A stretch of 39,318 nucleotides of DNA. Origin: a virus. A program made the translations under genes and the position numbers. The stretch lies in the IMG/VR virus record IMGVR_UViG_3300038563_000001, positions 1 through 39,318 of that record, one strand, 5' to 3'. Under the pieces are notes generated by a model. It searched no databases and had not been told where the DNA came from. It worked only from the letters and a program-made list of their open reading frames with translations. This document shows positions 4,523 through 38,550 of this stretch, one piece after another (within the stretch, counting starts at the first letter, position 1; every line of letters begins with the position of its first letter).

Positions 4523-5290
4523 ATGAGCAATGAAATCATCATGCCGGAAGAGCGGCACCAGTCCGTGGCAGTCCATCAGCCAGGGCAAGAGATCAGCATG
4601 CTGGCGACCATCAGCCGGCTGGCCCTCGATCCGCGCTGTGACATGGAAAAGCTTGAGCGCCTGATGGCACTGCAAGAACGCATGGAGGCCAAGAGCGCGC
4701 TGGAAGCCTTCAACGCGGCCTTTGCGGAAATGCAGTGCGAAATGCCTTCTGTCGAGAAGCGCACCGAGAATACGCACACCAAGAAAATGTATGCCGACTT
4801 GGATGATATCAACTATGCAGTGCGCCCGGTCATGGCCAAGTTCGGCTTTGGTGTGTCGTTCAAGATCGTCAACCAGGCCAATGGCGTCAGCGTCACCGGC
4901 ATTCTAATGCATAAGTCCGGACACCGCGAAGAGACGACGATGATCCTCCCGCTGGACACTGGCGCCGGGCGTAGCGCTGTGCAATCGGTCGGCTCGACCA
5001 CCACCTACGGCAAGCGCTACGTGATGTGCGCCTTGCTGAACATCACCAGCGGCGATGACAACGACAACGATGGCTACAAGGAGCCGAGCGATCCACTTGT
5101 GACACCAGCGCAAGCTCGCCAGGTTCAAGCACTGCTGGACAAGTGCAGTGAAGCCGTCCACGCCAACTTCGAAAAGATGTATGGCGACCCAGGCCAGATT
5201 GCCAAGTCAGCCTTTGACGGTGTAGTAGCTGGCCTGAACAACTCAATTTCCAAAGCGGCCAAGGCTGCCAAGCAGGAGCAAGCAGAATGA
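4523..5290 (+). CDS. erf: Erf-family single-strand annealing recombinase, 255 aa
   Basis: Belongs to the ERF family of single-strand DNA annealing proteins, which pair complementary strands during phage recombination and genome circularisation. Supporting stretches are KMYADLDDINYAVRPVMAKF at about residue 90, followed by FGVSFKIV, a GHREETTMILPLD segment and the very characteristic SVGSTTTYGKRYVMCALLNI. The C-terminal third is a linker-like tail. It works with the exonuclease encoded immediately downstream, whose ATG overlaps this stop (5287-5290). P22 uses an Erf protein for the same purpose. Confidence 0.93.
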   Translation: MSNEIIMPEERHQSVAVHQPGQEISMLATISRLALDPRCDMEKLERLMALQERMEAKSALEAFNAAFAEMQCEMPSVEKRTENTHTKKMYADLDDINYAVRPVMAKFGFGVSFKIVNQANGVSVTGILMHKSGHREETTMILPLDTGAGRSAVQSVGSTTTYGKRYVMCALLNITSGDDNDNDGYKEPSDPLVTPAQARQVQALLDKCSEAVHANFEKMYGDPGQIAKSAFDGVVAGLNNSISKAAKAAKQEQAE

Positions 5291-5904
5291 CCATGCAGAT
5301 TATCCGCGATCTAGAGCAAGGTTCGCCCGAATGGCATGCGCTCAGAAGTGGCATTGCCACCATGTCCGAAATCCAATGCCTGCTAGTGGATGGAAAAGGC
5401 ATAGAAGGTTTCGGTGCTGGCGCCATAACTTACATGAACATTCTGATTGGCGAGCGCATTACCGGCGAATCAGCCGATGCTTTTCAAGGCAATTTCCACA
5501 CCGAGCGCGGTCATGAACTGGAGCCAAAAGCCCGTGAACTGTATCTGGCCCAGACTGAACTTGAATGCGATCAAGTGGCGATCATCTTAAACCACGGCTG
5601 CGGATACAGCCCCGACTCTATGGTGGGCGCCGACGGCCTGAATGAAATAAAAACCAAGCTTGCGAAGTTCCAAGTCGAAATCATCCTTGCCGATGAGGTC
5701 CCGAAGGAGCACGTCGCGCAGTGTCAAGGCGGCTTGTGGCTTTCTGACCGCGAGTGGATCGACTTTGTGAGCTATTGCCCCGGCATGCCGCTGTTCATCA
5801 AACGGATGGAGCGAGACGAGAAGTTGATCCGCAAGATGGCCGAGCGCGTGAAAACCTTCTATGAGATTCTTGAAGACCGCATGAACCGCGTGTTGGGGAT
5901 CTGA
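5287..5904 (+). CDS. YqaJ-type phage recombination exonuclease, 205 aa
   Basis: A lambda-exonuclease-like (YqaJ/PD-(D/E)XK) nuclease that resects double-stranded ends so that Erf can anneal the exposed strands. Family signs are the N-terminal GSPEWHALRSGIATMSEI, the central FHTERGHELEPKARELY, then YSPDSMVGADGLNEIKTK with the E-x-K catalytic pair, and AQCQGGLWLSDREWIDFVSY. Length is normal for the family. It is translationally coupled to erf by an ATGA overlap and followed after two bases by ninB. Confidence 0.93.
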   Translation: MTMQIIRDLEQGSPEWHALRSGIATMSEIQCLLVDGKGIEGFGAGAITYMNILIGERITGESADAFQGNFHTERGHELEPKARELYLAQTELECDQVAIILNHGCGYSPDSMVGADGLNEIKTKLAKFQVEIILADEVPKEHVAQCQGGLWLSDREWIDFVSYCPGMPLFIKRMERDEKLIRKMAERVKTFYEILEDRMNRVLGI

Positions 5905-5906
5905 CT

Positions 5907-6320
5907 ATGGAGTTCAAATTGTCCAACGAATCCGACCGAGCGCGCCTTATGGGCCATCTGGCAGGCTTGGACCTGATCAAGCCTATGTCGGTGTCGGTCA
6001 AGGAGGAAGACCGTAACGATGGACAGAATCGCCTTCTTCACAAACTGCTGACTCAGGTCGCCGAACAGGTCGAGTGGCACGGCCATAAGTTCTCTGTGAC
6101 CGTCTGGAAACGCCTATGCACGGCGGCATGGCTAAGGGAGGATGGACATTCACCTATGCTTGTCCCTTCTCTTGATGGCCATGGCATCGACATGATTTTT
6201 GAACACACGTCGAAGCTGAGCATTAAACAGTGCGCCAGCCTCATAACCTGGATCGAAGCTTATGGATCGCATAACGGCGTGAAATGGTCGACTCAGGATC
6301 ATTGGCAGGGCCGATATTGA
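5907..6320 (+). CDS. ninB: NinB-family recombination protein, 137 aa
   Basis: Matches the NinB (Orf) family, single-strand-DNA-binding recombination mediators of lambdoid phages. Visible family features are NRLLHKLLTQVAEQVEWHG, the segment around VWKRLCTAAWLREDG and the C-terminal MTW-like LITWIEAYGSHNGVKW. Here it is grouped with erf and the exonuclease on the plus strand, while ninG lies far away on the minus strand, so the classical nin cluster is split. Confidence 0.9.
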   Translation: MEFKLSNESDRARLMGHLAGLDLIKPMSVSVKEEDRNDGQNRLLHKLLTQVAEQVEWHGHKFSVTVWKRLCTAAWLREDGHSPMLVPSLDGHGIDMIFEHTSKLSIKQCASLITWIEAYGSHNGVKWSTQDHWQGRY

Positions 6321-27043: not shown

Positions 27044-29178
27044 TTACCTCCCAAACGAGCAATAACCTGCTCTCTACTCATTCCGTTATGAGCCATAGTG
27101 GCAGCAATATCTTCTTCGGTCACAGCGCCATGCTCCGGGTGCTGCATGACACTTTGCTGCATGCCCTGCTCGAACTTGTCGATAACTTGCAAGGCTTGTT
27201 GCTGATGAATCTGATCGACTTCAGCGATAGTCTTGATTGCTTCAGCCTTCGACTTATCTGCATCTGCCAGGGTCTTGATAGTTCCAGCATTCGCCTTCAC
27301 AGCATTCGCGTTTGCTTCTTTGGCTGCGGCTTCCAAGTATACGGTGTTTGGATCCGGCTGGGCATTGGCTTGTTCTGCCGCCATTTCTTTCAGTTCTTCT
27401 TCGGTAGGCTTGACAACACCCATTCGTACCAATTTTTTGCGGAAGAAGCCGCGCACATCCTCGATGCCTTCGCCTTCCAGGTTCATCATGGTCATGGCGC
27501 TCAATACCTGGAGCGTTTCAGGATCGGTAGTGATTGCCATCATGCCTGTGAGCGCCCGGACGGTAGCCGCACGCTTGCTGCCGGATGATGGGCCTACGTC
27601 AACAGCCACATCGAACTTGGCGTCACCCATGTCATTCTCGAGCGCTACTCCGGTCTCGCTCATCATCGGTTTACGAAGTTCAACAGATCCGGTCGAACCA
27701 TCATATGAGATGGATTTCATCTTGCGGCCATCTTCGACCAGCACGTCTTTGGCCATCGACAGCCAGATCTCTCCGGAGCGCTTGACGGCTTTAGCCATGT
27801 TCGACATGTAGATGAACACCTGCATGTCCAGACGCTGCTGGATCAGCTCCACCGCCTTGCCAGACATGTTTGGCTGCATCTGTTCGCCGGCCTGCTGATT
27901 GCCTAGCAGATCCTGCATATCGGTCTCGGTGATCTGAAGCAATGCTGCCATCGCCGCGGGGATCTCTGGTGCTTTGGTGTAACCGATCGGCCCAGAAGCA
28001 ACTTGCTGACCGGTGGCGTCAGTGATCGGATTAACCAGCAAATATGGATAGTTCTTCAGATTGTCATCGGCCCACATGATCTGGTGACCGGCCATCTGCT
28101 CGGGCGTGAAGATCGGCTTCTCGATGGAGCTTAGGGCACTGATCTCTCCAAGCTTGCTCAACTGCATGTTCTTCAGTCGCTGCGCGTCTTTGGCCAAGCG
28201 GACATGGCCCATGCAGCGCTCGACGTTATCGATGAACCAGCGTTTGCCATACATCGGGACAATCGGAATGCACTTACCAGGAAGATAGCCGCAGTCTTCG
28301 AGGACTCGTGCACCGGACATGATGTACTTGCGCACCTTGATGCATTTGATCGGCTTGGTTCTGATCAGATTACTGCCGATTGCTTCAAGAGTATCCATAA
28401 GCTCTGGGTCATCTTTGAATTCAGATTCTTTGTATTTTGTTTCAGTACCGTCGAGACTGCGCCAAACCTGAATGTTCTCTTTGACTTTCTCAACGCAATA
28501 ATATTCAGCGATGAAAACAACATCGGGAGTCGACCAATCAAATTCGGATTGATAGATATCCTTCGGCCAAGATGCAGGACTATCGTCGTATTCATCCTCA
28601 TATGCAGCATGCGACATCGAGGTCAGAACGAAACAATGTTTTGCGTCGGCTTTGTCTTGGCGCTTGGCATCAAGATCGAAGAATACGCAGCTATCCGCGT
28701 CAAAGATCGGCTCAATGCAGATCCGCTGTTTGTCATCGTCCTCATCCTCTTCGTCTTCATACTTGGCACGCAGGCGCCACGCACCGAATCCACCGCCTAC
28801 CGCCTCTTCGAATGCATTGTCATAGGCTTCCTCGGCCCCGCTGTCCTGTTCATCCGCCCGATACAAGCCATCACACGTATCAGCCAGCTTATCGTTCTCG
28901 GAACCATCCTTGCTTACGAAATCGACAGTGATCCGATTGTTCCGGTATTCATTGATGATCCGAATTACCGACAAATGGATTTTATTAACTTCAAACTTCG
29001 GCTTGTTTTCGAATTGATCTCTTAGCGGACCTTCCCATTGAGCGCCGGCAATTGAATAGAATCGACGATCTTGCAAACATTGACGACGTTCATCGCGCAA
29101 TGTCGATTGAATATTGTCGAATTGAACCATCGCTTTAGAATGGATATCCCGTTCCCGTTCTGCCTTCGTGCGTGCCAT
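27040..29178 (-). CDS. Portal protein, P22 gp1-like, 712 aa
   Basis: The dodecameric channel at the packaging vertex. Length fits P22 gp1 (725). Diagnostic parts are RDERRQCLQDRRFYSIAGAQ and RIINEYRNNRITVDFVSKDG near the N-terminus, then EEAVGGGFGAWRLRAKYE and KCIPIVPMYGKRWFIDNVER, and a helical C-terminal barrel region (about 600-712). It forms the docking point for TerL during packaging and for the gp4-like factor afterwards. Three bases separate it from terL. Confidence 0.94.
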   Translation of the reverse strand: MARTKAERERDIHSKAMVQFDNIQSTLRDERRQCLQDRRFYSIAGAQWEGPLRDQFENKPKFEVNKIHLSVIRIINEYRNNRITVDFVSKDGSENDKLADTCDGLYRADEQDSGAEEAYDNAFEEAVGGGFGAWRLRAKYEDEEDEDDDKQRICIEPIFDADSCVFFDLDAKRQDKADAKHCFVLTSMSHAAYEDEYDDSPASWPKDIYQSEFDWSTPDVVFIAEYYCVEKVKENIQVWRSLDGTETKYKESEFKDDPELMDTLEAIGSNLIRTKPIKCIKVRKYIMSGARVLEDCGYLPGKCIPIVPMYGKRWFIDNVERCMGHVRLAKDAQRLKNMQLSKLGEISALSSIEKPIFTPEQMAGHQIMWADDNLKNYPYLLVNPITDATGQQVASGPIGYTKAPEIPAAMAALLQITETDMQDLLGNQQAGEQMQPNMSGKAVELIQQRLDMQVFIYMSNMAKAVKRSGEIWLSMAKDVLVEDGRKMKSISYDGSTGSVELRKPMMSETGVALENDMGDAKFDVAVDVGPSSGSKRAATVRALTGMMAITTDPETLQVLSAMTMMNLEGEGIEDVRGFFRKKLVRMGVVKPTEEELKEMAAEQANAQPDPNTVYLEAAAKEANANAVKANAGTIKTLADADKSKAEAIKTIAEVDQIHQQQALQVIDKFEQGMQQSVMQHPEHGAVTEEDIAATMAHNGMSREQVIARLGGK

Positions 29179-29180
29179 GT

Positions 29181-31376
29181 TTATTTCCTGCCGTAATGAT
29201 TAGTGGATGGAAGCGGGGCGAAGTCGGTTGGCTTATATGCATTGGCTGCACGCCTAGCGCCTTCACAAGCATATCGCAGCGCATCGATTACATGGTTGTC
29301 CTTGTCGTTGAGGATCGGCATCACCATGTTCGTGAGTGCGTCCACTTTGTAACTGTACAGAGTCAGTTCATCAATGGCATGGATGCAGCGCGGATGAACG
29401 ATAATATCGAATGACTGCAACCACGCTACTCCTTCCTCAACCGATTTGGCGCCCTTGATGGCCGGCATGATTTTCGGATAGCCATTCTTGCGCATATGAC
29501 TGATAGTTTCAGGTCGCGCATTGTCAGCAACAATTGGCCATTTCTCCGAATCGGGGATGGTCGCAAACAGCGCGGGCGTATCGATGATCTCGCAGCCGAC
29601 CTTGTACGCTTCATAGTCGATATAAAGTTTGCGACCGATGATATGGCAACGAGTGAGTATTGTCGGATCTGTAGAGAACCCCCAATCAGCTCCAAGCCTA
29701 TGAACTGCATCAGCTGGCGCCTCGAACTCTTCCACCTTCCAATTCTTGAATACTCTGGCTTCGCTATTCTTCAGATATTCGCCGCGCCAGATGTGCTGGA
29801 ACTTCTCAGGGTCGCGCTTCTTGTCGTATTCCATCTCATCGCGCAAGACATCAGGGAACCATGGGTTGTCTTCATAGTTCACCGGGATAATTACGGCGTT
29901 CGGTGGCGGATCATCACTTCGAAGCAGCGCATCAACCGGGTCAGTGGCATTGCGCGGATTCCAAGTGAACCATAGCTCGCTTCCAGGCTTACGGATGGTC
30001 GGCCTCAGCAGGTCAAGACTATGCTGGCTCAGTGTCTGCGCCTCTTCCACCCAGGCGATGTCATAGCCCTCGAGGGACTTAATCGACTCGGCCGTGTGGT
30101 TTTGCATGCCCTGGAAGATGATACGGCCGCCATGAGCAGACAGGATCTGATCACGTTGGACTTCGAATAGATGCTGAACTCCGAGATCGACGATCTTGTT
30201 TTCAAGCAATTTCTTGACCGATTGATTCAGAGATTTCTGGATCTCTCGAACACACACCGCGTCCGTCTTCTGGATGGAACACAGTTCGATTAGATGCTCA
30301 GCGAACAGATGGGACTTGCCGGAATTGTGATTAACGATCCCATTCGACAGATAGCAATTCGTGCCATAGACATGGAGATCCCAATATCTCTGGTGGCTGT
30401 GGTTGCGGACGAGTCTAATTGATGATAACTTGAAGCCTCTCCCGCCACAGGAAAAACCTAATGAGTCATCGAGATCAGCGTCGCGAGCAGTGCCTTGAGC
30501 TTTTTTCCGGGTTCCAACCAGAACTTTCCAAATGCCGAAAGCCTGAGGTAGTCCGTCAATGTGCAGAGATGGCACGCAATGGCTTGTATTCGCATGAGAT
30601 AGCTGAGGCTCTTGGCATATCTCCGAAAGCTGTACAAAAGATATTCCGTCGCTATGACTTCCCAAAGCTTCACAACTTTGCGCCGCCATTGAGAGAGGAG
30701 CGCCCAGGCTGGAAGGGAGGAGTAAAGATCGTGAAAGGCTATTCGTATTCACGCACGCCGGGGCATCCTCATGCATCCAAACATGGCAATTATGTAGCTG
30801 TTCATCGGCTAGTGATGGAAGAGACACTTGGTCGATTCCTTCTTCCGACTGAAGTGATCGATCACATCGACGGGGACACGCAGAATAATCAGCCTGAGAA
30901 CCTTCGGGTATTTGAATCGAATGCCGAGCATCTTCGCGTGACTCTTGCTGGCCGATGCCCGAACTGGAGTGATGCGGGTAAGGATGCATTGCAGAAGGCC
31001 AGGTCACAACCTCGTCGGACTTGGAAAGGTGTTGCAGTTGAACCCAGCCCCTCTGAGTGAGGAACTTGTGTTCGTCAGTCGCAATGATTGACGAGCCATC
31101 CGCAAGGATTACTTCGTAAAGATCCTGCTCGTCATATTCAACAGGTTTCGTAGCCTCAGCTATGACGAGCCGACCATCCAGCCAGGAATATACTTGGCCT
31201 CCTCTGAAATCCTTGATGCGGACCTGTCCATTTGGCGTGTCGATAAGCGTATCGGGATGAACGCATCCGCGACCACCATGTGCGCCCTTGTAGCGGGCGG
31301 CGCCATCCACAACAGGAATCGCCCAGCGCGGGGTATTGATCTTAAGCGTCGAGCCTGAATCAGTCTTTTGGAGCAT
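29181..31376 (-). CDS. terL: Large terminase subunit precursor interrupted by an intein, 731 aa (417 aa after splicing)
   Basis: The packaging ATPase and headful nuclease. N-extein residues 1-37 end in GAHGGRG and the C-extein from residue 352 starts SGKSHLFAEH, so splicing restores the Walker A sequence GGRGSGKS. Walker B is IAWVEEAQ at 440-447. The nuclease part shows GADWGFSTDP (Asp564), ADNARPE (Asp618) and DNHVIDALRYA (Asp698). Sequence style is that of the PBSX/Terminase_3 group rather than P22 gp2. Unspliced protein would lack a working P-loop, so packaging depends on splicing. The start overlaps terS by 17 bases. Confidence 0.94.
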   Translation of the reverse strand: MLQKTDSGSTLKINTPRWAIPVVDGAARYKGAHGGRGCVHPDTLIDTPNGQVRIKDFRGGQVYSWLDGRLVIAEATKPVEYDEQDLYEVILADGSSIIATDEHKFLTQRGWVQLQHLSKSDEVVTWPSAMHPYPHHSSSGIGQQESREDARHSIQIPEGSQADYSACPRRCDRSLQSEEGIDQVSLPSLADEQLHNCHVWMHEDAPACVNTNSLSRSLLLPSSLGAPLSMAAQSCEALGSHSDGISFVQLSEICQEPQLSHANTSHCVPSLHIDGLPQAFGIWKVLVGTRKKAQGTARDADLDDSLGFSCGGRGFKLSSIRLVRNHSHQRYWDLHVYGTNCYLSNGIVNHNSGKSHLFAEHLIELCSIQKTDAVCVREIQKSLNQSVKKLLENKIVDLGVQHLFEVQRDQILSAHGGRIIFQGMQNHTAESIKSLEGYDIAWVEEAQTLSQHSLDLLRPTIRKPGSELWFTWNPRNATDPVDALLRSDDPPPNAVIIPVNYEDNPWFPDVLRDEMEYDKKRDPEKFQHIWRGEYLKNSEARVFKNWKVEEFEAPADAVHRLGADWGFSTDPTILTRCHIIGRKLYIDYEAYKVGCEIIDTPALFATIPDSEKWPIVADNARPETISHMRKNGYPKIMPAIKGAKSVEEGVAWLQSFDIIVHPRCIHAIDELTLYSYKVDALTNMVMPILNDKDNHVIDALRYACEGARRAANAYKPTDFAPLPSTNHYGRK
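30324..31265 (-). mobile_element. Intein in the terL P-loop, 314 aa, with an antisense HNH gene in its centre
   Basis: Intein residue 1 is Cys (CVHPDTLIDTPNG, block A). Block B is around DGSSIIATDEHKFLTQRG with Thr63 and His66. Block F is YWDLHVYGTNCYLSNG with Asp295, and block G ends VNHN with His313 and Asn314; the +1 residue is Ser. All splicing residues are present, so it is probably active. Residues about 91-280 read as Ser/His/Cys-rich low-complexity sequence with no LAGLIDADG or HNH motif. The opposite strand of residues 69-269 carries the HNH gene. Removing that block would leave a mini-intein-sized unit of about 115 residues. Confidence 0.93.
30461..31060 (+). CDS. HNH homing endonuclease encoded antisense inside the intein, 199 aa
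   Basis: Phage-type HNH endonuclease. A helix-turn-helix-like region lies at about 40-65 (NGLYSHEIAEALGISPKAVQ), then LHNFAPPLREERPGWKGG and the HNH core: VHRLVMEETLGR (His115), EVIDHIDGDTQNNQPENLRV (Asp134, His135, Asn147) and NAEHLRVTL (His157). The ATG has AGGAAAAA about 5 bases upstream. It lies wholly within the terL intein on the opposite strand, occupying the place where inteins usually carry an in-frame endonuclease. It would cut intein-less terL alleles and drive homing of the intein plus itself. It runs against late transcription, so it needs its own promoter. Confidence 0.9.
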   Translation: MSHRDQRREQCLELFSGFQPELSKCRKPEVVRQCAEMARNGLYSHEIAEALGISPKAVQKIFRRYDFPKLHNFAPPLREERPGWKGGVKIVKGYSYSRTPGHPHASKHGNYVAVHRLVMEETLGRFLLPTEVIDHIDGDTQNNQPENLRVFESNAEHLRVTLAGRCPNWSDAGKDALQKARSQPRRTWKGVAVEPSPSE

Positions 31377-31773
31377 CGATGATTACTCGTTCAACCCGGG
31401 TGATGATTGCGCCGCCGCCTTTCCCTGTCAGCTCAACAATCTGCTTATCCAAGCCAAGAAGCTTAGCCTTTCCCAGCGTCGCATTAACAGCAGCTCCAGT
31501 CTGAGGCGTAGGGCATTCAAGAGCTATCTTTCTCGCCTCTTCAAGTTCTCTCAGAAGGTCTTCAATGGTCAATTGAGCCTTTGCCACAGCCGGTGCACGA
31601 AGTTCTTTCAGTCTTGCGGCGATGTTGGGGTTATCGAGAACATCTTTTGCTGTTCTATTGATCGTTGCAGGTTTCATGTTTTCTGCATTATAGGCTCTAC
31701 GATAGGCCTCAGAGGCATTTCCTGTCTCTACGTATGCCAAACAGAAGGATTCTTGTTTTGCTGTGAGGGCCAT
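31360..31773 (-). CDS. terS: Small terminase subunit (Terminase_2 family), 137 aa
   Basis: Recognises the packaging site and starts headful packaging together with TerL. The N-terminal DNA-binding part reads LTAKQESFCLAYVETGNASE and AYRRAYNAENMKPATINRTA, typical of the family. A helical oligomerisation region follows (TIEDLLRELEEARKIALECP), and the C-terminal tail overlaps the terL start. A pac site may lie within this gene as in P22, but I cannot identify it. Confidence 0.93.
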   Translation of the reverse strand: MALTAKQESFCLAYVETGNASEAYRRAYNAENMKPATINRTAKDVLDNPNIAARLKELRAPAVAKAQLTIEDLLRELEEARKIALECPTPQTGAAVNATLGKAKLLGLDKQIVELTGKGGGAIITRVERVIIDAPKD

Positions 31774-33550: not shown

Positions 33551-34126
33551 CTACTGGTCTGTGGCCGGCAGTGCAAGTTGTGCTTTCAGTTCTCTGACCT
33601 TTGCGCAGTAGTGCGCCTTGATCTCTTTCAAGTCATCGATGGTATAGCGCTTTGGCTCATGCTTTCCTTCGAGCCAATCCACTTTATCTTGTCCGATGCG
33701 CTTCACCAACTCTATACGATATTCAAGGATTGAACCTGATTTCGCCATGTTGCAGTTCCGATTACATTGCAGGTGGACATTCAGCGGTTCAAATCTTAGC
33801 TCGGGACATGACGCGACAGTTCGAAAATGACCGGCGGCATATTGAACATCTGCCGTGGTCCCGCATGAGATACATGGCAATCCATGATCTCTGAAGCGAA
33901 TCCAAGAGTTGAAAGCGATTTGTGCATCTTTTGCATGATCGCCCTTTGACTTGATCCGCTCCTTCGCCTGCCGATGCTCTGCGCGCTCCCTGGCCTCCTT
34001 AGCCTTGCGCGCCTTCTCCTTGCCCGCATTGGTCAGCGCTATGGCGCATGGAACGCCACAGGCTGACTGGAGAGGCCGAGAGGGGATGAACTCGGCGCGG
34101 CAGAATTTGCACTTTTTTGGCTTCAT
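33551..34126 (-). CDS. ninG: NinG-family recombination endonuclease (Rap-like), 191 aa
   Basis: Matches NinG/Rap, the branched-DNA endonuclease of lambdoid phages that resolves recombination intermediates. N-terminal zinc motif KKCKFCRAEFIPSRPLQSAC, a charged helix (KEKARKAKEARERAEHRQAK), then the catalytic core DAQIAFNSWIRFRDHGLPCI and SCGTTADVQYAAGHFRTV, and finally LQCNRNCNMAKSG. It would act with Erf, the exonuclease and NinB although encoded on the opposite arm. It is the last gene before the terminator at 33363-33389. Confidence 0.92.
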   Translation of the reverse strand: MKPKKCKFCRAEFIPSRPLQSACGVPCAIALTNAGKEKARKAKEARERAEHRQAKERIKSKGDHAKDAQIAFNSWIRFRDHGLPCISCGTTADVQYAAGHFRTVASCPELRFEPLNVHLQCNRNCNMAKSGSILEYRIELVKRIGQDKVDWLEGKHEPKRYTIDDLKEIKAHYCAKVRELKAQLALPATDQ

Positions 34127-36903: not shown

Positions 36904-37661
36904 CACTCAATCTCCTTCACGATTTTATTGTGTTCATTCAGCGTGCGCTCATGATCAGCCTTACGCTCTTCCGGGGTCATGGCCGCCAGCGCTTCGGCTC
37001 GTTGCCTGACTATATCTTTCAGACTCATGAACTTTTGGCGGTGTTCTTCCTTCGGCTTCACTATTTTTCCGGTGATCAATCCAGCGATTGCCTGAGATGT
37101 TTGTGATGGGGCCGACAATTGGAGTCTGCTGAGATGTCGATCGGCTTCAATCTGTGGAATCCGGTTAAGTTGGACAGCCTGCTGGATGGCCGAAGCGCGG
37201 CGGTCCTTGTCGAAGCCCAGAGAGACGATCCAGTCTACTGGCCGATTAATCTGACGGCTCTCACGCACAAGCCGCTCATAGGTCGATATGAACGCCATGC
37301 GGGCGCCAACCTGATCACCCTCATCAAGAATGATCTTCGCCGAAGCCATTGCCTGCTGGATCTCCCAAGTCATGATGGCTGTGCCGTATTCATCCGAGGA
37401 ATCGAGGCCAATCGACCACGCCTCATCCTTGCCCGGGCGTCCGTCCTCTGTCTGACAATGCTGAATGACATCAGCCACGGTCAGACGTCCCTTGTTCTCT
37501 CGGCGGCAGGCGCACAATGCTCGGCCAAGTTCAGGCAGCGAGTAATCAGACAGATCATCGGCCATCATCATCGCGACCGATGGAGTGATCACATTGCCCA
37601 TCGCTTCAGCCGTCAGGCAGAGCGCGTCAATCAATTGGTCCTTATCGCTTGAGGAAAGCAT
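36903..37661 (-). CDS. Replication protein, possible helicase loader, 252 aa
   Basis: Follows the DUF1376 gene with a 20-base overlap, in the place of a lambda P-type or DnaC-type helicase loader. The N-terminal part (TPSVAMMMADDLSDYSLPEL, CRRENKGRLTVADVIQHCQ) and DGRPGKDEAWSIG are typical of phage replication proteins annotated this way. No Walker A motif is visible, so it is not a DnaC-type ATPase by eye. The C-terminal region is helical and charged. Predicted role: recruit the host DnaB helicase to the phage origin. Confidence 0.6.
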   Translation of the reverse strand: MLSSSDKDQLIDALCLTAEAMGNVITPSVAMMMADDLSDYSLPELGRALCACRRENKGRLTVADVIQHCQTEDGRPGKDEAWSIGLDSSDEYGTAIMTWEIQQAMASAKIILDEGDQVGARMAFISTYERLVRESRQINRPVDWIVSLGFDKDRRASAIQQAVQLNRIPQIEADRHLSRLQLSAPSQTSQAIAGLITGKIVKPKEEHRQKFMSLKDIVRQRAEALAAMTPEERKADHERTLNEHNKIVKEIE

Positions 37662-38550
37662 TTTGAATCCCCCCTTCTCTCATCATTCGCTTGGCCTCTT
37701 CAGCGGCCGAGATATTGGATTGCGTATTTTCAATTTGACGGGCTGTCGTCCCGGTAATTTGCGTGCCTGTTACCCATTGCGTCCTAACCGATTCACATTT
37801 TGAAAGCAGGAGCCCTAGGTCATGCACGTTTTTTATAAAAAATGAATCATTGATAGTCACGTAGTAAAACGCGACATGCGGCGCCTCATCCGCTCCTAGC
37901 CTCTTCACGATTTCGGAGATCATCTTGTTTGCCTTGGCGTTCCTAACTGGCTCGGCGCTGTATCGGTTGAAATAGGAATCTGCATAGGCTTGCCAGGTTT
38001 TCGCATTCGCCTCCTTCTTCGCTTCCGCCTCCGGATCTTTTTGTTTCGCGACCTTCTTCGCTTTCACCGGTGCAGGAGTGCCAACGAGCTGCAAAGTCTT
38101 TTGATTTTGTTTCTGTTCTAGATCTGTATCTACATCTACATCTACATCTACATCTACATCTACATCTGTATGGTTGACGTTCTGTTGAACGTTCGTTGCA
38201 ACGTTCGTTAAGCGCTTGATACGGCGAGCCTCTGCGCTGGCCTTCCCAGCCATGCTCGCATTCTTCGATTTTGAGTAAACGCCGGATAAATCACGTTCAA
38301 TCCGATGATGAATCCACTCTCCATCCTTGATTTCGAAGAACTCTTCTAGCAGTTCTCTAGCCTCGATCCATTCCTGTTGAGACATCCGTGCAACGTTCGC
38401 TAAACGGACGTTGGAATCCTTAAGCGGCGCCCCGGTCTGCCAATAGTTCATGATCAGCAGCAGGTATGCCCCATGCTGTGCAGCATTGAGGTGTGCCGTG
38501 TCTGCCAGGTAATCAGCTGGATAAAGCTGTATGTACGGCAGGGCTGCCAT
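37642..38550 (-). CDS. DUF1376 (YdaU-like) replication initiation protein, 302 aa
   Basis: The N-terminal DUF1376 domain is clear: LPYIQLYPADYLADTAHLNA followed by QHGAYLLLIMNYWQTGAPLK. Residues about 115-150 are a low-complexity linker with TNVATNVQQNVN and a run of Asp-Val dipeptides. Then comes a Lys/Glu-rich stretch and a C-terminal domain (about 185-302). Proteins with this start act as O-like origin-binding proteins. Like lambda O, the gene may contain its own origin: short direct repeats lie at 38176-38211. First large gene after cro. Confidence 0.8.
   Translation of the reverse strand: MAALPYIQLYPADYLADTAHLNAAQHGAYLLLIMNYWQTGAPLKDSNVRLANVARMSQQEWIEARELLEEFFEIKDGEWIHHRIERDLSGVYSKSKNASMAGKASAEARRIKRLTNVATNVQQNVNHTDVDVDVDVDVDVDTDLEQKQNQKTLQLVGTPAPVKAKKVAKQKDPEAEAKKEANAKTWQAYADSYFNRYSAEPVRNAKANKMISEIVKRLGADEAPHVAFYYVTINDSFFIKNVHDLGLLLSKCESVRTQWVTGTQITGTTARQIENTQSNISAAEEAKRMMREGGIQNAFLKR
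38131..38166. repeat. Hexanucleotide microsatellite in the DUF1376 gene
   Basis: Six perfect TACATC units flanked by degenerate copies on both sides; on the coding (minus) strand it gives repeated Asp-Val. In-frame length change is possible. It lies 10 bases from the iteron-like repeats. Confidence 0.9.
38176..38211. repeat. Candidate replication iterons, three tandem 12-bp units
   Basis: Units at 38176, 38188 and 38200; the last two share AACGTTCGTT exactly and the first is degenerate. A further copy, AACGTTCGCTAA, occurs at 38392-38403, followed by an inverted ACGTTG. Placement inside the initiator gene resembles the lambda origin. The repeat also encodes the short TNVATNVQQNV peptide, so coding repetition is an alternative. 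Confidence 0.4.

Follow-up and report, generated by a model that had tools for sequence, protein, structure and literature searches.

A terminase intein of a phage genome fragment and the HNH endonuclease gene encoded on its opposite strand

The phage genome fragment analysed here (a virus record of 39,318 bases, referred to below as the window) carries an intein in terL, the gene of the large terminase subunit, and the strand complementary to this intein contains an open reading frame for a complete HNH protein. Such a layout raises the question of whether the two overlapping genes form one mobile unit or share the same DNA for another reason.

Layout of the terL intein and the gene opposite to it

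The following features were located in the window:

29181–31376, minus strand: terL open reading frame, comprising N-extein, intein and C-extein, 731 codons (Terminase_3, Terminase_3C and Intein_splicing in Pfam; phage_term_2)
31266–31376, minus strand: N-extein, 37 aa, ending with ...AHGGRG, the first half of Walker A (sequence; empty-site homologue L008)
30324–31265, minus strand: intein, 314 aa, from Cys1 to His-Asn (sequence; Hint fold, Foldseek matches to DnaB/RecA inteins with probability 1.0)
30996–31265, minus strand: N-terminal part of the Hint domain (intein residues 1–90), holding the block B motif TDEH (pLDDT >90; conserved columns)
30441–30989, minus strand: intein residues 93–275, a foldless spacer opposite the HNH gene (pLDDT <50 at nearly all positions; secondary structure absent; missing from the 136-aa mini-intein L009)
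30324–30431, minus strand: C-terminal part of the Hint domain (intein residues 279–314), ending with ...GIVNHN (pLDDT >90; conserved columns)
29181–30323, minus strand: C-extein, starting with SGKS, the second half of Walker A (sequence)
30461–31060, plus strand: endonuclease of the homing type with HTH and HNH_3, 199 aa, wholly within the intein (Pfam, PHROG; AlphaFold mean pLDDT 90.5)
30542–30655, plus strand: helix-turn-helix of the HNH protein, residues 28–65 (HTH_23 match at 33–65; helices 28–39, 44–51 and 55–64)
30797–30913, plus strand: HNH_3 catalytic core, residues 113–151 (Pfam; invariant residues among 43 homologues)
30449–30452, plus strand: AGGA, putative ribosome binding site located 8 nt 5' of the ATG (sequence; family-wide enrichment)

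The terL gene is a single frame of 731 codons and the host gene is unbroken, as opposed to that of a split intein or a fractured gene. Its product matched Terminase_3 (E = 8.8e-30) and Intein_splicing (E = 1.7e-9; 38.1 bits with a cut-off of 35.8) in Pfam, as well as intein_Nterm of NCBIfam (28.1 with a cut-off of 24.5). The intein is inserted inside the P-loop (Walker A) of TerL, at GGRG^SGKS, and its splicing residues Cys1, TDEH (residues 63–66), His-Asn and Ser+1 are intact. The 314-codon intein with these flanks and residues, put forward in the original prediction, was thereby confirmed with exact coordinates. Splicing would leave a TerL with a predicted length of 417 aa.

An AlphaFold model of the intein, computed with 32 related inteins, gave a confident Hint fold for residues 1–90 and 279–314, with residues 93–275 structureless, and the Foldseek search with the intein model returned the Ssp DnaB mini-intein (probability 1.0, E 1.7e-7), in agreement with the Hint fold. 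The insert predicted to be disordered spans nearly all of the HNH-opposed stretch, and in the model this part of the intein frame looks like a spacer rather than a domain. No family match was obtained in the intein's own frame for residues 93–275, so the claim that the intein centre lacks an endonuclease motif in that frame held. Whereas a canonical homing intein has its endonuclease in the intein frame, the HNH gene lies on the other strand.

The plus-strand frame contained HNH_3 (E = 3.9e-11) and HTH_23 in the Pfam search and matched 14 PHROG families, of which 13 bear the name HNH endonuclease; a full HNH protein had been expected on the complementary strand, and the frame was found to be exact. 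D134, H135, N143 and N147 were invariant in 43 homologues, as were N154 and H157 located just 3' of the core. The gene overlaps about 200 intein codons in a register in which HNH codon positions 1, 2 and 3 face intein positions 1, 3 and 2, respectively. The top PDB match of the HNH model in Foldseek was I-HmuI (1u3e), although weak (probability 0.96, E 0.08). Both proteins combine an HNH core with a DNA-binding part; I-HmuI is encoded in sense within a group I intron, whereas the window HNH is antisense in an intein.

Recurrence, expression and mobility in related phages

IMG/VR was scanned with four HNH proteins, resulting in the best 80 loci (38–69% identity) plus one bacterial MAG. Further IMG/VR scans used divergent and clade 2 HNH proteins and alignments of the splicing domain, with the best 80 matches considered per scan. 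In all of the roughly 155 IMG/VR contigs recovered in this way (a count of contig names; HNH identity down to 38%), the HNH gene lay antisense inside an intein, between the splicing blocks and in one codon register, and the same register was observed in one bacterial MAG (L165) and three cultured-phage records. At the loci of the first scan, a long stop-free frame in the shared register was present opposite every HNH gene except in L006/L106 (a single TAA), and both remaining antisense registers were full of stops. The intein frame was uninterrupted from the N-extein to the C-extein in all but one copy. The lone in-frame TAA of L006 (positions 1385–1387; the same in L106) is located opposite an intact HNH gene and arises from a Thr codon of HNH (ACG) where L103 and L107 have Ala (GCT). 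This copy may be defective, may contain a sequencing error or may represent a two-piece intein.

A comparison of related phages with the HNH gene on the minus, the plus or no strand, suggested with the original prediction, revealed that the opposite-strand layout recurs and that mini-inteins without HNH exist. No freestanding or sense-strand relative of this HNH clade was found among the matches listed (best 80 per scan); more distant ones may exist. An assembly chimera was ruled out by the recurrence in independent contigs and cultured phages and by the even GC content (0.52, uniform over extein, Hint and HNH). Since one register is common to all relatives, a single old origin and long persistence of the antisense layout are suggested. 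The proposed capture of an HNH gene in inverse orientation may thus stand as a single old event, but not as a one-off local capture.

The cultured carriers are Pectobacterium phage Ymer, Dickeya phage Setonix and Pseudoalteromonas phage PHS3, and matching HNH proteins were detected, by HNH match alone, in six other Ymer relatives. In Ymer, the terL frame forms an ORF of 771 aa, and the annotation of the overlapping protein reads 'hypothetical'. For PHS3 (L167, 15628–22107), HNH is annotated and the annotated terL lies only downstream of it; the terL open frame extends opposite HNH and through the intein to the upstream extein. HNH matches in plasmids were distant and partial only. Among 398 genomes from the phylum to which the L165 MAG belongs, a match at 1e-12 was found in that MAG alone, and the element therefore seems to be phage-borne and rare in bacterial genomes. 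Two loci combined the element with another intein. Downstream of its antisense-HNH intein, the TerL of L144 (1593–4883) carries another one (Hint_2 match, ...CLAAGTM...VANC), and in L289 an antisense HNH gene of this family (664–1410) is located in a 1104-aa ORF with another intein at 2469, probably a two-intein gene.

A Shine-Dalgarno-like motif was present at 12 of 18 homologue HNH starts, with 0.6 expected, showing that the HNH gene has its own putative translation signals in most copies examined. The ribosome binding site predicted for the window gene is backed by AGGA 8 nt before the ATG and by this enrichment, but the signal is modest in the window copy itself. A promoter scan of 29900–31400 gave nothing convincing for HNH and no sigma-70-like promoter upstream of it. 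On the plus strand, the window phage carries a module with recombination genes. Genes for a primosomal protein (37642–38550), NinG (33551–34126) and Erf/RecE-like exonuclease/NinB (4523–6320) were identified, corresponding to replication and recombination modules of the lambdoid type.

The overlap could be regulatory, with HNH and terL transcripts suppressing each other, which would place production of the endonuclease early and that of TerL late. The conservation of the overlap in all relatives and the recombination-gene module on the plus strand of the window phage are consistent with this, whereas the lack of a promoter in the scan and the existence of mini-intein alleles without HNH speak against it, and the reading was considered doubtful as the main explanation. 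It is compatible with the mobile-intein explanation and does not exclude it.

The TerL encoded in L008 is 89% identical to the window TerL, lacks the intein and reads GGRGSGKS, a precise empty site. No gradient of co-conversion was visible around the site in comparison with L008, a pair only 81% identical in DNA and too divergent for this purpose. For L119 and L125, the HNH proteins are 84% identical and the TerL C-exteins 35%; the corresponding values for the window and L001 are 65% and 32%. The hosts include TerLs of the Terminase_3 and Terminase_6N/6C families, terL being the most frequent host, as well as SNF2/DEAD helicases (L156, L157), an AAA_24 ATPase (L181) and a TraG/TraD-like ATPase (L212), and in every host type it is the P-loop that holds the insertion, immediately ahead of its GK. 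The fixed register in relatives and the transfer between divergent TerLs bore out the prediction that two genes overlapping on opposite strands make up a single mobile unit, and the intein and the HNH gene appear to move together into divergent hosts at one site.

Mini-inteins without HNH were found at the same site in L009 (136 aa), L240 (139 aa) and L255 (130 aa). The inteins of L242 and L136 are near-identical apart from a clean in-frame deletion of 486 bp in L242, which eliminates the start and the greater part of HNH, leaving the intein frame intact and an HNH remnant (E = 1.5e-10). The splicing-domain tree has mini-inteins at four positions, forcing at least two changes, and this scattering indicates that HNH loss is probably recurrent. 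In sequence, the mini-inteins seen look like products of such losses.

HNH proteins can assist terminases in packaging (HNH of the HK97 gp74 type), and the prevalence of terL among the hosts would fit a role of the HNH protein in packaging by TerL instead of homing, with the pair kept as a functional unit. The occurrence of the element in genes of the helicase, AAA_24 and TraG/TraD-like types, the loss of HNH from the otherwise near-identical allele L242 and the many close TerLs without the element make such a role very unlikely.

Coding constraint on the two strands

In 66 distinct HNH genes, the intein register contained 1 stop codon, with 389.9 expected after synonymous shuffling within each gene, whereas the other two registers contained 645 (589.6 expected) and 514 (514 expected). 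A second set of 50 HNH genes, nearly all of them new, had no intein-register stops (301.9 expected). Ten freestanding phage HNH controls showed no comparable depletion (74 stops, 88.9 expected), and other genes of the window averaged 10.6 such-register stops per 200 codons. A chance ORF was ruled out by the shuffle test and these controls.

In 19 independent close pairs, the differences per HNH codon amounted to 0.18, 0.160 and 0.415 at positions 1, 2 and 3, respectively, and the amino acid identity in the intein frame was always below that in the HNH frame. With position 3 of HNH changing fastest and the identity of the intein frame lower, these substitution patterns show the HNH protein to be the apparent conserved product and the opposing intein frame to be mainly kept open. 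The double constraint put forward in the original prediction was upheld in that the depletion of stops is real and general, but it is asymmetric, the HNH protein being conserved and the intein frame mostly just open.

A different pattern was observed in clade 2 (GPVG/AGFG-type TerLs), whose HNH proteins are longer, with a tail that faces the Hint N-domain on the other strand. The ratio of position 3 to position 2 differences, 3.8 for the first 120 residues, decreased to 0.85 past residue 140 and to about 0.6 at residues 180–219, with slow change at all positions. This drop indicates that the codon-position test is able to detect a constraint on the intein frame. Both the tail of HNH and the Hint domain evolve slowly in this clade, as a double protein constraint predicts. 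In L166 and L311, HNH residues 140–222 form a conserved C-terminal extension, RVDxYxQRKxxGDVRLxQILLAxLxLGxDSPxLLGT, opposite the Hint N-domain.

Three further readings were weighed against these data. Homing could be dead and HNH inactive, with both genes persisting by inertia, as the existence of mini-inteins and of the deletion allele might indicate. The strong purifying selection on the HNH amino acids, the invariant catalytic residues and the transfers between divergent TerLs render this highly improbable. That the intein middle is removed as RNA (a group I/II intron) or bypassed, and never translated, is less probable still. Group I introns do include examples with an endonuclease gene in antisense (PMC9548176), but removal or bypass would create no selection against stops in precisely the intein frame, this frame is continuous between the exteins in all but one copy, and an RNA intron was dismissed after an Rfam search of 29100–31500 gave no match up to E = 1 and no group I intron catalytic RNA. 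The lucky overlap of a freestanding phage HNH with an ordinary intein in this genome, although HNH_3 genes are commonly freestanding in phages, has a negligible likelihood and was refuted by the comparative data: all close relatives have a fixed register with near-zero stops, where controls and window genes are stop-rich.

The proposed element and its relation to known systems

The locus very probably represents a mobile intein lineage with an antisense-encoded homing endonuclease inside the intein. TerL would be translated as a precursor including the 314-aa intein, and the two Hint parts would fold together and splice the intein out with a roughly 180-residue unstructured loop, the excised loop being the reverse reading of the HNH gene. 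HNH would be made separately from a plus-strand transcript, would recognise the P-loop coding DNA of an intein-less terL in a co-infecting phage and would nick or cut it, and repair would copy the entire unit of intein and HNH into the cut terL. Both the splicing of the TerL precursor and the nicking or cutting of the empty P-loop site are inferred from the protein families. Selection for HNH mobility and for uninterrupted TerL translation would keep both strands open, and HNH could be lost by in-frame deletion, giving rise to a mini-intein. The broader proposal of an old and widespread lineage of P-loop-ATPase inteins, with an obligate opposite-strand endonuclease in one register since its origin and a GPVG/AGFG clade in which each strand codes for conserved protein, one for the C-terminal domain of HNH and the other for the N-terminal half of the Hint domain, is considered probable.

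Among systems with an endonuclease gene apart from the intein frame, fractured genes, reportedly described by Dassa et al. in 2009, have split inteins with a freestanding endonuclease between the halves, so that host gene and intein are both split; here, one continuous precursor overlaps the endonuclease gene. Homing inteins hold the endonuclease in frame, as in the HNH_3 intein of the dCTP deaminase of cyanophage CL131 (PMC6293099). This intein is similar to that of the window in its Hint splicing domain, HNH_3, a phage enzyme as the host gene and the organisation as one mobile unit, but its HNH is located in the intein frame between the splicing blocks, whereas the window HNH is on the complementary strand and the intein centre is an unfolded spacer. 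Inteins in the P-loop of mycobacteriophage TerL are known, the Walker A motif of terminase large subunits being an intein hot spot, and the passages on them describe no opposite-strand endonuclease (PMC5050341). The classic site described there is between Lys and Thr, whereas here the insertion is between Gly and the Ser/Thr/Cys preceding GK. Antisense genes for homing endonucleases also occur in nuclear group I introns such as Didymium Dsq.L2066 with I-DsqI (PMC9548176), where the endonuclease likewise lies opposite the host-gene strand inside a self-splicing element. Dsq.L2066, however, is an RNA intron of eukaryotic rDNA with a His-Cys endonuclease, whose host strand is untranslated, so that no double coding constraint arises. 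In the open-access literature searched, no report of an antisense endonuclease in an intein was found.

If the proposed explanation is true, a selfish element coded on two strands would constitute a new intein architecture, in which the intein and its homing endonuclease would stay paired on opposite strands over deep divergence. With such a pairing, the endonuclease would be expressed separately from the host protein. The family would provide a natural and replicated example of double coding over long antisense stretches, for which freestanding HNHs, mini-inteins and a deletion allele serve as matched controls, making theories of overlapping genes testable, and would offer inteins tolerating long unfolded inserts. 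The antisense-HNH intein would also explain the misannotated TerLs of public phages such as Ymer and PHS3.
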